DNA from: Spirosoma fluviale
Lineage (GTDB): Bacteria; Bacteroidota; Bacteroidia; Cytophagales; Cyclobacteriaceae
Assembly: GCA_945868725.1 (NCBI GenBank)
Contig: CAMBMU010000007.1
Location: 1-55,429, forward strand
Reading direction: 5' to 3'
DNA: 55,429 nucleotides
Below the pieces are notes generated by a model. That model was not told where the DNA came from. It saw only the letters and a program-made list of their open reading frames with translations, and searched no databases. Every line of letters begins with the position of its first letter. Position 1 is the first letter of the stretch. Both the position numbers and the translations under genes were made by a program. This document shows, one piece after another, positions 17,873 to 25,658 of the stretch.

Positions 17873-19114
17873 TTACTCCTCCAAATACCGACTACTCTCC
17901 CCTTCTGGCAATTCCTGCATCTCTTTGAGTTTGCGTTGGATGATTCGCGTACGTACCCCGACTAACTTATCCAATTCAGAATTAGCCTCGCTAATTTTCT
18001 TTTGGGTGCGTTCCAACAGGACTCCAAACTTCCCAAATTCAGTTTTGATGGCTCCCAAAACCTGCCAGACCTCTGAACTTCTTTTCTGGATAGCCAGGGT
18101 ACGAAAGCCCATCTGCAGGGAATTCAGGATAGCAGAAAGGGTCGTTGGGCCTGTCACAATCACTTTGTACTCCTGCTGCAGGTATTGCGCAAGTCCCGGT
18201 TCCCGAAGAACCTCCGCATAGAGACTTTCCATGGGAAGAAATAACACCGCAAAGTCAGTGGTCTGTGGTGGGTGGATGTATTTAGTAGAAATATCTGCAG
18301 CAGATTTTTTCACCGCCTTGATCAATTCCAGGCGGTATTGGTCTGCCAAGGCCTTATCCGCGATTTCTTGTGCATCGACTAATCGTAAATAGGCTTCTTG
18401 AGGAAATTTTGAGTCAATGGGCAAGTAAATTTCTTCGCTTTGACCGGGCATCTTGATGGCAAACTCTACCCGTTCCCTGGTTCCTGTAACCGCCGCATTG
18501 ACCACATACTGCTCAGGGCTGAGTACATTCTCTAGGATGGCTTGCAATTGATATTCACCGAGTATCCCCCTACTTTTGACATTCGTCAGCACCCGCTTGA
18601 GGTCTCCCACTCCGCTTGCGAGGCTTTGCATTTCGCCTAGGCCTTTTTGAACCGCCTGCAGCTGGGTGCTCACCAAGTCAAAAGACTGCCCCAATCGAGT
18701 TTCTAAGGTCTTTTGAAGCTTCTCATCGACAGTTTCCCTGATTTTCTCCAAGCGCTGCTCGGTATTTTTCAATAGCTCATCTTGCCGCCGACTCAGTTCG
18801 GTAAGCTTCTCCCGTTGGACAGCACTCAAGTCACTCAAGGCCTGCCGCACCCGATCGCCAAACTGCTGTAAGGCTTCATTTTGCTCCTTTCCTGCAAGAC
18901 GCTGATGATCAAATACTAACTGAAACTGCCTATGGAGGTTTTCTGAAGCTTCTTTTCGTGCATCCGCCAAATTCTGACCTAAAGTTCTACTTAAAGCTCG
19001 AAGCTCCTCACGCAGGGCTGCATCAACCGCTTGTTTTCTCCTTCCAAAAAGTAAGACACCCAATGCACCCATTGAGGCCGCTAATAGTAGGTAAACTAAA
19101 TTTTCAATTGGCAT
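17873..19114 (-). CDS. rmuC: DNA recombination protein RmuC
   Basis: N-terminal TM anchor, long coiled coil, RmuC core (GVGDLKRVLTNVKSRGILGEYQLQAILENVLSPEQYV, LPIDSKFPQEAY, LFLPMESLYAEVL). Confidence 0.93.
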   Translation of the reverse strand: MPIENLVYLLLAASMGALGVLLFGRRKQAVDAALREELRALSRTLGQNLADARKEASENLHRQFQLVFDHQRLAGKEQNEALQQFGDRVRQALSDLSAVQREKLTELSRRQDELLKNTEQRLEKIRETVDEKLQKTLETRLGQSFDLVSTQLQAVQKGLGEMQSLASGVGDLKRVLTNVKSRGILGEYQLQAILENVLSPEQYVVNAAVTGTRERVEFAIKMPGQSEEIYLPIDSKFPQEAYLRLVDAQEIADKALADQYRLELIKAVKKSAADISTKYIHPPQTTDFAVLFLPMESLYAEVLREPGLAQYLQQEYKVIVTGPTTLSAILNSLQMGFRTLAIQKRSSEVWQVLGAIKTEFGKFGVLLERTQKKISEANSELDKLVGVRTRIIQRKLKEMQELPEGESSRYLEE

Positions 19115-20123
19115 AGGCTACTTGTTTCGACGGCTGAAGGTAGGTCTTTCGAACCTCCACACCGAGAAAACTAAGGTATTCTGCGACAGTCTCCGTCGGT
19201 ATTTCTTCCATCGGCACATGTCCTGCCGCATCAAAAACAACCAAGTTTGCTCCCGGAATCAATTGCTGCAGCCGCTGCCCTTGGGACAATGGATTCCAGG
19301 TGTCCTTGGCTCCCCAGAGAATGAGTGTTGGCATAGTCAGCCGATCAAACCGTATGGAATTGCTTCTTGGAACGCTCAAACGATCTAAGGTAGCTTTCCG
19401 ATTGCCTTCGCGCAACATCAATTCGTAGTATCGGGTAGTAACTTCGGCCGTCACTTTTGCTTCATCTCCATATACCTGTTTCATGTTGAGTTCAAAAAGA
19501 AATTTTGGGGTACAGTAAAGCAGTAATTTTGAAAATATGGGATGCCTTGCGAACTGAACAATCCATGCACCTCCAGAACTTGTTTTCTTTTGAGCACTGG
19601 AATCTGCCGATTTCCGTTCAGGTGCAGTTGCGCCCACTGCATCTATCAGATTGAGCGAAAGTACCTGTTCCGGATGATCTGAAGCCAACTGCAAAGCGAC
19701 TCCTCCACCCATGGAATTGCCTGCCAAGTGGTATTTGGGTAGATTTAATTTTTGAGCCAATCCATAAACTAACTGACTGTAATCTTTTGTGGAGTAACGC
19801 TTTAAAGAATCTGGACCCGTAAGTCCATGTCCTGGAAAATCTAAAGAAATGGTTTGGTAGTAAGGACTCAATTCCTGCTGCCATGGCTCCCAGGTATGTA
19901 AGGAGGCAAAGCTACCGTGGAGTAAAAAAATAGGCTCCCCTTCACCCTTAATTCTCACATGAACACGAATACCGCCTACTTCTATAAATTGAGATTCTGG
20001 GGTAAGGTATTTTGCATTGACTAGGTCAGGGGAAATATCACTACGATACAAGGAAGCAAGAAATAGCACCATTAAGAGTAGTAAAACCCCTAAAACCTTT
20101 CCAATTCTTTTGATCCAATTCAT
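19104..20123 (-). CDS. Alpha/beta hydrolase
   Basis: HGSFASLHTWEPW oxyanion region, nucleophile elbow GNSMGGGVAL, WGAKDTWNPLSQG, AAGHVPMEE; N-terminal TM. Confidence 0.9.
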   Translation of the reverse strand: MNWIKRIGKVLGVLLLLMVLFLASLYRSDISPDLVNAKYLTPESQFIEVGGIRVHVRIKGEGEPIFLLHGSFASLHTWEPWQQELSPYYQTISLDFPGHGLTGPDSLKRYSTKDYSQLVYGLAQKLNLPKYHLAGNSMGGGVALQLASDHPEQVLSLNLIDAVGATAPERKSADSSAQKKTSSGGAWIVQFARHPIFSKLLLYCTPKFLFELNMKQVYGDEAKVTAEVTTRYYELMLREGNRKATLDRLSVPRSNSIRFDRLTMPTLILWGAKDTWNPLSQGQRLQQLIPGANLVVFDAAGHVPMEEIPTETVAEYLSFLGVEVRKTYLQPSKQVAYAN

Positions 20124-20197: not shown

Positions 20198-21424
20198 GTG
20201 AACCTAAAAAAACTCATTTCATCCATCGGCCCAGGCCCCTTGATCACAGCAGCCTTCATTGGTCCAGGAACGGTCACGGTTTGCACCCTAGCAGGCATCC
20301 AATTTGACTATACCCTACTTTGGGCATTGGCTTTAAGCATCGTCGCGACGATTTTTCTTCAAGAGCTCTCAGGAAAAATTGGAATCGTTACCCGTATGGA
20401 TCTCAGCCAGTTACTACGGAGACCATCCAATAACCCGATCTGGAGATTTCTACTCATGGGGCTCATTTTGATAGCGATAGGCTTAGGCAATGCAGCGTAC
20501 CAAAGTGGCAATATTACGGGTGCTTATCTTGGTTTGGAGATCTTTTTGGAGCTACCCACCTGGAGCTTAGGCCCTTTTCAAGTGCAATCGGGAAATTTAC
20601 TGATAGGGCTTTTAGCAACACTTCTTTTATGGACTGGAAATTACAAACGTCTAGAAATGGTCTTGGTGGGTTTGGTGCTCCTCATGTCCATCGCTTTTCT
20701 GGTTGCTGCAGCATTGACAAAGCCTGCCATCACTCCAATGCTCCAAGGGTTTGTTCCTCAATTTTCTACCGATAGACTTCCTACCATCGTAGCGCTTATC
20801 GGTACTACAGTCGTTCCGTACAACTTATTTCTTTACGCCAGCTTGGTCCAAAAGCAATGGACAACTGAAAAGGACCTGCCTGTAATGAAGCGGGACATTT
20901 GGATTTCAATTCTTTTGGGAGGCTTGGTATCCATGGCCATCTTGGTTGCAGGTGTGGCAAATCCAGCAAGTAACTTGGAAACGGCTCAGGATATTGCCAA
21001 AGGCCTTACGGGAGTTTTTGGAATTTTTGGCACCTACCTGATGGGCTTTGGCTTATTGGCGGCAGGCATGACTTCTGCACTGACGGCTCCACTTGCAGGT
21101 GGATTGGTGATTTGCGGAATATTGGGATGGAACCAACAGATGCAATCCCTACCTATGCGTTTCAGTATGGGAATAATTCTTCTACTCGGAATTATTTTCT
21201 CTTCCTTGGGAATAAAACCTGTAACCTTAATCACCTTAGCGCAGCTTGCCAATGGCGTGCTTTTACCCCTTATCAGCGGTTGGCTAGTATGGATTTGTAC
21301 CAAAAAAGAGATTTTGGGGGTACATGCGCTAGGTACTAAAGGGGTGATTTTTGGTGGTCTTATTTGGTTGATAACTCTCCTTCTTGGGATCAAAAGCCTG
21401 GGAGCTGTTTTTGGATGGTTTTAA
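20198..21424 (+). CDS. NRAMP-superfamily (Mn/Fe/Mg-type) transporter with non-canonical TM1/TM6 motifs
   Basis: GTG start; TM1 FIGPGTVTVCTLAGIQFDYTLLWAL, TM6 GTTVVPYNLFLYASLVQ, about 11 TMs; overall alignment to MntH pattern. Confidence 0.85.
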   Translation: MNLKKLISSIGPGPLITAAFIGPGTVTVCTLAGIQFDYTLLWALALSIVATIFLQELSGKIGIVTRMDLSQLLRRPSNNPIWRFLLMGLILIAIGLGNAAYQSGNITGAYLGLEIFLELPTWSLGPFQVQSGNLLIGLLATLLLWTGNYKRLEMVLVGLVLLMSIAFLVAAALTKPAITPMLQGFVPQFSTDRLPTIVALIGTTVVPYNLFLYASLVQKQWTTEKDLPVMKRDIWISILLGGLVSMAILVAGVANPASNLETAQDIAKGLTGVFGIFGTYLMGFGLLAAGMTSALTAPLAGGLVICGILGWNQQMQSLPMRFSMGIILLLGIIFSSLGIKPVTLITLAQLANGVLLPLISGWLVWICTKKEILGVHALGTKGVIFGGLIWLITLLLGIKSLGAVFGWF

Positions 21425-24290: not shown

Positions 24291-25658
24291 TTAGAGATTT
24301 AACAACAACATGGCTACACCAAAATACACAGCCAAACCAAGTAAGTCATTGGTTGTGGTGATAAATGGACCAGATGCAATGGCTGGATTGATGCCGAAAT
24401 GATGCAAAACCAAAGGGGTAACCGTGCCCATAAAAGAAGACAAAAGCACCACGCAAAATAGAGCCACCCCTACTGTAATACCAAATAAAGGTTCGAAACC
24501 ATATAAATATGCGACGACAAGGAAGACAAAAACTCCGAGCACAAAACCATTGAGTAAGGCTACCAAAAAACCTTTGAAAAATCGTTGCCATGGTGTGTCG
24601 TCAAAGGCAGATTTCGAAGCGAGGGACTGCACAATCAGAGAGGATGCTTGAATCCCTACATTGCCACCCGTTGCAGCGACCAAAGGAATGAAAGATGCCA
24701 ATGCCAAGTATTTCGAAAGTCCTCCTTCAAAAAAGCCAATCAGTTTGGCTCCCATCAACCCTCCTATAACGCCAATCAACAGCCAGGGTAATCGAGCTTT
24801 TGAAATGGTGAATACCGAATCCGATTCTTCAATATCAGCCGAAACACCGGCCATGGCTTGCATATCTTCCTCTGCTTCTTCTTGAACTACGTCCAAAATA
24901 TCATCTACTGTGATTCGGCCTACCAACTTGTTTTTGGCATTGACTACGGGCACAGATTCCAAGTCATACTTTCGCATCAGGGACGCTACTTCCTCTTGGT
25001 CCATATACACAGGAACCGAGATCACCTCATCCTCCATGATGCTTTCAATGGTGGTTTCTGAAGCAGAAAGAATGATTTTTTTGAGCGAAACCCGACCCAA
25101 CAGCTGCTGTTTGTTATTGACTACATAAATGGAGTAGAATTTCTCCACATTTTCTGCCTGTCTCCGGATTTCATTGATGGTCTGTACTACGTTCCAATTT
25201 TTGTTGGCCCGTATAAATTCTTTTGCCATAATTCCCCCAGCCGTATCTTCTTCATAGCGAAGCAATTCCAATATTTGCTCCAGCTTGATTCGATCGTCTA
25301 TTTCAGAAATTATTTCTTCCCGTTCCTTATCAGAAAAGAAACTGATAATATCAGCTCCATCATCAGAGTCCATCAGCTGGATCCAAGATGCAATTTCTTT
25401 TATTTCTACCTCTTGAAGCACTTTTTCAAGGGTATTATCGTAAAGTTCAATCAAAATATCCGCTGCCAATTGACCTTCCACAAGTCGCAGCACATAGATG
25501 GATTCAGCAGTGTCCAGTTCATCCAAAATAGCGGCAATATCCGCCACATTGACCCCCGCTAAAGAATCGAGAATGTAGGTCGTTTCCTCGGCAGCAATCC
25601 CCGATTGGAGACGCTCCAAGTATTCTTTCGAAAGCTCAAATTTTTTAATTTGCTCCAC
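24291..25658 (-). CDS. mgtE: Magnesium transporter MgtE
   Basis: MgtE N domain, tandem CBS domains, TM domain SLIPLVAATGGNVGIQASSLIVQSLA and ASGPFITTTNDLLGLAVYFG. Confidence 0.93.
   Translation of the reverse strand: MEQIKKFELSKEYLERLQSGIAAEETTYILDSLAGVNVADIAAILDELDTAESIYVLRLVEGQLAADILIELYDNTLEKVLQEVEIKEIASWIQLMDSDDGADIISFFSDKEREEIISEIDDRIKLEQILELLRYEEDTAGGIMAKEFIRANKNWNVVQTINEIRRQAENVEKFYSIYVVNNKQQLLGRVSLKKIILSASETTIESIMEDEVISVPVYMDQEEVASLMRKYDLESVPVVNAKNKLVGRITVDDILDVVQEEAEEDMQAMAGVSADIEESDSVFTISKARLPWLLIGVIGGLMGAKLIGFFEGGLSKYLALASFIPLVAATGGNVGIQASSLIVQSLASKSAFDDTPWQRFFKGFLVALLNGFVLGVFVFLVVAYLYGFEPLFGITVGVALFCVVLLSSFMGTVTPLVLHHFGINPAIASGPFITTTNDLLGLAVYFGVAMLLLNL

Follow-up and report, generated by a model that had tools for sequence, protein, structure and literature searches.

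What does an Nramp-fold protein carry when the residues that bind the metal have gone? This question is raised by an open reading frame (ORF) at positions 20198-21424 on the forward strand of a 55,429-nucleotide stretch of Spirosoma fluviale DNA (assembly GCA_945868725.1, contig CAMBMU010000007.1), the whole of which is referred to here as the window. A preliminary description had read this ORF as an Nramp-fold transporter with altered metal-binding motifs and had proposed a Mg-type ion or another solute as its substrate. Our analysis favours the second of these. We read the window protein as a putative secondary transporter of Nramp/LeuT fold that imports 5-oxoproline (pyroglutamate, cyclised glutamate), and hold this reading at a probability of roughly three in four, because its metal site is lost and its relatives adjoin enzymes that degrade 5-oxoproline.

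The reading frame is intact, begins with GTG and encodes 408 amino acids. The protein matched the Pfam Nramp family PF01566 (E-value 4.5e-72), while among the NCBIfam models it passed only the general model NF037982 (score 55.9; cut-off 50) and scored far below the cut-offs of both the MntH and the nramp models. An AlphaFold model built from 27 homologues reached a mean predicted local distance difference test score (pLDDT) of 88.6 and a predicted template modelling score (pTM) of 0.88. Foldseek returned DraNramp (template modelling score, TM-score, up to 0.84), EleNRMT and BfraNramp as the top PDB matches of this model, with APC amino-acid carriers such as ApcT ranked below the Nramps, and also listed the YcsG-FabL integrative model (9a52). 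By Pfam and by fold the protein is thus a member of the PF01566 superfamily, as had been claimed. The gene is under purifying selection: in a comparison of the close relatives L098 and L096 the ratio of nonsynonymous to synonymous substitution rates (Ka/Ks) was about 0.06, with Ks from relatives to the window gene itself large or saturated. A further close relative's copy (G146:C93:10729-11952) has an internal TGA, from either an assembly error or a recent loss.

The substrate site was read from an alignment with DraNramp. In the unwound segment of transmembrane helix 1 (TM1), where canonical Nramps have DPGN, the window protein has G22-P23-G24-T25, encoded exactly at 20261-20272, with D56 replaced by G22 and N59 by T25. 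The unwound segment of TM6, TTVVPYNLFLY (residues 203-213; 20804-20836), is part of TTVVPYNLFLYAS, encoded at 20804-20842, and here A227 is replaced by T203, M230 by V206, H232 by Y208 and H237 by Y213. The replacement of the metal-coordinating Asp, Asn and Met and the change of both His residues to Tyr, previously aligned by eye, are therefore confirmed. The preliminary description had missed a further change in TM3, where the motif GNAAYQSGNITG (residues 97-108; 20486-20521) carries Y101 and N105 in place of the canonical residues, D131 having become Q102 and E134 having become N105. TM10 contributes a conserved polar pair, Q349 to N352 (21242-21253), which faces the site by homology. T292-S293 of TM8 (21071-21076) stands where many LeuT-fold carriers have a Na2-type Thr/Ser pair, but is not diagnostic of such a site because canonical Nramps have Ser-Ser there. 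All of these segments lie on the forward strand. No acidic or Met residue is left at the canonical metal site in the DraNramp alignment, and the TM3 acid through which BfraNramp binds Mn (PMC12873925) is among those gone. The canonical site has been lost, and the earlier view that a soft transition metal held by Met is an unlikely substrate is supported.

The altered site is not an oddity of one protein, as had been implied, but a fixed signature of the whole clade. G22, P23, G24, N105, T203, V206, P207 and Y208 were identical in 95-96 of 96 orthologues, so that chance does not account for the pattern; T25 was identical in 94 of them. The GPGT of TM1 was also present in the 12 members compared from a second Bacteroidota clade (g2) and in the eight haloarchaeal relatives compared. 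Two positions followed lineage. The residue equivalent to H237 is Tyr in 19 of the 96 orthologues, only in the Algoriphagus lineage and its near kin, and His in the other 77, and TM3 position 102 is Gln in 12 and Glu in 84. Judged by these motifs, the window protein matches the Slc11 'orphan outgroup' of Cellier (PMC9606685, PMC10606218), which has Tyr and Asn in helix 3 and Thr, Val and Tyr in helix 6; the orphan-outgroup residues in the published mutants are exactly Y101, N105, T203, V206 and Y208 of the window protein.

A maximum-likelihood tree of 65 proteins, an analysis that the preliminary description had suggested, placed the window protein outside the canonical Nramps, which were split from all other proteins with a support of 100/100. 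In this tree EleNRMT, BfraNramp and DraNramp were represented by the portions in phmmer alignments and not by full sequences, and Bacillus badius YcsG, which has the same pxpA-ycsG-hydro-lyase order, stood for B. subtilis YcsG. The window protein was nested in the Algoriphagus lineage, itself inside a Bacteroidota clade (g1), and g1, g2 and a haloarchaeal clade formed a larger GPGT group with a support of 96/78. YcsG-type proteins grouped apart from these, on a very long branch that leaves their exact position unsure, and EleNRMT was a single very long branch (2.64). When the long branches were removed, the GPGT group still stood apart from the canonical Nramps (100/100), with g1 only weakly supported as a single clade (64/56). 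A third Nramp-related clade (L046, L047, L048, L050, L051) has IFGPGS in TM1 and ASxFSI in TM6, and its gene is always followed by genes for a 338-amino-acid epimerase-family protein and a 358-amino-acid protein without a Pfam match.

The substrate is suggested by the genes beside the relatives. Of the 80 named orthologue loci, 58 have pxpA, pxpB and pxpC (Pfam families PF03746, PF02682 and PF02626) directly downstream of the transporter on the same strand, and in 18 of the 39 family genomes with a close orthologue pxpABC lies within 200 nucleotides of it. Members of g2 follow a eukaryotic-type 5-oxoprolinase, which is not homologous to the PxpABC enzyme, in 7 of 12 loci. The haloarchaeal relatives (about 35-44% identical) abut the hydantoinase/oxoprolinase HyuA-HyuB in 9 of 11 loci read, one of the remaining two running off its record, and glutamate dehydrogenase is encoded close to the transporter in two Haloarcula loci. 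The gene immediately preceding the transporter encodes a DUF2891 protein at 45 of the 80 loci (for example L113:5883-6977), and the model of this protein matches the crystal structure of Campylobacter jejuni Cj0554 (8iev; 38% identity, TM-score 0.87). Cj0554 is encoded in the operon cj0552-4, a mutant of which cannot use 5-oxoproline (PMC12795558), and DUF2891 may be an enzyme of pyroglutamyl metabolism. The DUF969/DUF979 5-oxoproline transporter of C. jejuni (cj0552-3) likewise adjoins DUF2891 and 5-oxoproline metabolism, but belongs to a protein family unrelated to that of the window protein.

These loci held several further features. DUF2891 has a hydrophobic N-terminus and adjoins a g2 member too (G004 contig 181). 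In two Kordia loci (L156, L170) the pxpA match is 483 amino acids long with no separate pxpB after it, which is probably a pxpA-pxpB fusion. Where pxpABC and the transporter lie apart, pxpABC is nearly always followed by a gene for a protein of about 503 amino acids (for example L074:1509-3020), and in most haloarchaeal loci the gene before the transporter encodes a CopG-type regulator.

The association was also seen across genomes. In a sample of 99 genomes of the family, with transporter groups assigned from identity, length and a table of motifs, pxpA was present in 39/39 genomes with a close orthologue of the window gene as against 19/60 without one. An oxoprolinase of the OPLAH/HyuB type accompanied g2 in 18 of 22 genomes and occurred in 8 of the 77 without g2, and either oxoprolinase was found in 62/63 genomes with any GPGT member as against 20/36 without. 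Five further genomes of the sample encode a YcsG-type transporter, all five with pxpA and none with g1, so that g1 and YcsG types were never found in the same genome. Within the genus, the transporter and pxpA were both present in 41/41 high-quality genomes, and the pairing is kept even in reduced genomes of 2.2-2.8 Mb.

The window's own genome, which is 82% complete, carries an intact pxpABC on contig 28, where no transporter adjoins it. OPLAH, a YcsG-type transporter, DUF979 and DUF2891 were not found in this 82% complete assembly, and since neither YcsG-type nor DUF979 transporters were found, the window gene is the only candidate among the 5-oxoproline transporter types searched for. A gene for a protein that by eye resembles gamma-glutamyltranspeptidase (L074:9061-10761) lies about 3.6 kb from pxpABC.

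The closest functional parallel is with PxpT of Corynebacterium glutamicum and YcsG (MntG) of B. subtilis, the 'G-motif 3' Nramp-related proteins. These share with the window protein the PF01566 fold, Gly for the TM1 Asp, Asn for the TM3 Glu and, at most orthologue loci, the pxpABC neighbours, although in the window's genome pxpABC is on another contig. In contrast, they belong to a separate clade, are about 25% identical to the window protein and have GPGF in TM1 and GTVGGY in TM6, where the window protein has GPGT and TTVVPY. C. glutamicum needs PxpT, a distant relative, to grow on 5-oxoproline (PMC13274462); the experiments that support import directly concern another clade. The best explanation of the evidence is that the window protein works like PxpT and YcsG while belonging to a clade of its own.

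In APC amino-acid carriers, glycine motifs of TM1 bind the carboxylate of the substrate. By analogy with LeuT-fold carriers in general, the carboxylate of 5-oxoproline would be held by backbone amides and the Thr hydroxyl of the unwound GPGT of the window protein, and the ring could sit in a pocket lined by T203, T204, Y208, N209, N105, Q349 and N352. A rocking-bundle cycle would move the substrate inward and, as 5-oxoproline is an anion, would probably be coupled to Na+ or H+, and the intracellular PxpABC, encoded elsewhere in the genome, would then hydrolyse it to glutamate with ATP.

Other substrates have to be weighed against 5-oxoproline. The protein might be an importer of Mn2+ or another transition metal with an unorthodox site, as has been claimed for YcsG/MntG, the link with oxoprolinases arising from regulation or from a need for metal. 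In favour of such a role, no canonical Nramp passed the Pfam cut-off in the window's genome, where a weak partial match on contig 18 stayed below it. However, canonical MntH/Nramp proteins (DraNramp, BfraNramp) resemble the window protein in fold (TM-score 0.84) and differ from it at all metal-site and proton-pathway residues examined. D56, N59, M230, E134 and H232 have become Gly, Thr, Val, Asn and Tyr, and the TM6 motif A-x-x-M-P-H of canonical Slc11/MntH proteins reads TTVVPY. YcsG itself belongs to a different clade and its homologue PxpT is needed for growth of C. glutamicum on 5-oxoproline, while the clade of the window protein is tied, in both bacteria and archaea, to oxoprolinases of two unrelated types. 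Riboswitch control was considered and rejected, as neither the window nor any of six relatives had an Rfam element, M-box included, above threshold. Taken together, this makes transport of Mn2+ or a similar metal quite unlikely. Transport of Mg2+ by a protein of the Nramp-related magnesium transporter (NRMT) type, as the preliminary description had suggested, appears very improbable indeed. EleNRMT (PDB 7qia), a Mg2+ transporter that carries both Mg and Mn (PMC8806188), is alike in fold (TM-score up to 0.83) and has Thr at the A227 position, a change common to NRMTs, but it keeps the TM1 Asp and the TM3 Glu that are gone here and has Ala where the window protein has Val. The NRMT site motif DxxG-TxxA/T, with its TM1 Asp (PMC8806188), is replaced by GxxT-TxxV. 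An M-box or a MgtE-N fragment gene as neighbour is a trait of part of the NRMT group; the six relatives and the window lack the former, and the recurrent operon lacks the latter. A link with Mg through the complete MgtE gene at 24291-25658 was likewise discarded, as this gene lies 2.9 kb away, is encoded on the opposite strand and is absent from the recurrent operon.

That the protein imports a small amide or organic acid akin to 5-oxoproline, such as a hydantoin, D-5-oxoproline or another cyclic amide, or that it has turned to a different substrate within the Algoriphagus lineage, is unlikely too, if slightly less so than transport of a transition metal. This alternative draws on haloarchaeal loci where HyuAB occurs with an Asp/Glu racemase-family gene, which follows HyuB in Haladaptatus and Halorussus (L175, L181, L182, L187), and on the Algoriphagus lineage, which has lost the linkage and gained extra site changes. 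Yet 5-oxoproline is the substrate common to all partners, pxpABC is specific to it, and pxpA has been kept with the transporter throughout the genus, the reduced genomes included.

Several observations count against 5-oxoproline import itself. Overexpression of B. subtilis YcsG raises cellular Mn, in a study that takes it for a Mn importer and notes that polar effects on pxpBC could account for the earlier evidence linking ycsG with 5-oxoproline (PMC10448178). The window gene is linked to neither pxpABC nor DUF2891, and its lineage has two further site changes, Q102 and Y213, which could possibly mark a substrate shift in the Algoriphagus lineage. In the tree without long branches, linkage to pxp was gained or lost four times across g1, which fits the loss of an old linkage in the window's lineage. 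The haloarchaeal line is less specific, as the HyuAB enzymes may act on hydantoins. Finally, the co-occurrence counts and their Fisher values ignore shared ancestry, and nine pxpA and six OPLAH genomes of the family have neither transporter type; the nine with pxpA only (G067, G068, G089, G018, G034, G032, G007, G061, G031) probably have an alternative 5-oxoproline route.

The immediate neighbours of the window gene are not thought to be functionally linked to it. The divergent alpha/beta hydrolase at 19104-20123 (reverse strand) serves as a marker of the gene order RmuC-hydrolase-transporter in Algoriphagus, and the next gene, of the 3-keto-disaccharide hydrolase family (PF06439; 21523-22275, forward strand), is kept at this position only among close relatives. 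Promoter and terminator scans gave no signal above chance.

Nramp-related groups other than the NRMT-like and G-motif 3 proteins have been called 'entirely uncharacterized' (2026 preprint on BfraNramp), and we propose here a link with 5-oxoproline for the orphan outgroup, a group without an assigned substrate. More tentatively, and with somewhat more doubt than belief, the whole GPGT clade of bacteria and haloarchaea together with YcsG/PxpT could carry 5-oxoproline or close cyclic amides, the outgroup that gave rise to the metal-transporting Nramps being amino-acid-like carriers and the metal site a later invention within the family. The clade is at present labelled 'Nramp family divalent metal transporter' in databases, a function that may be wrong in thousands of genomes. 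The proposal also bears on the dispute over manganese and 5-oxoproline as substrates of YcsG/MntG, because a second, independent Nramp-related clade has the same association with 5-oxoprolinases. Assigning a substrate to the orphan outgroup would supply the missing step between LeuT-fold amino-acid carriers and metal carriers.
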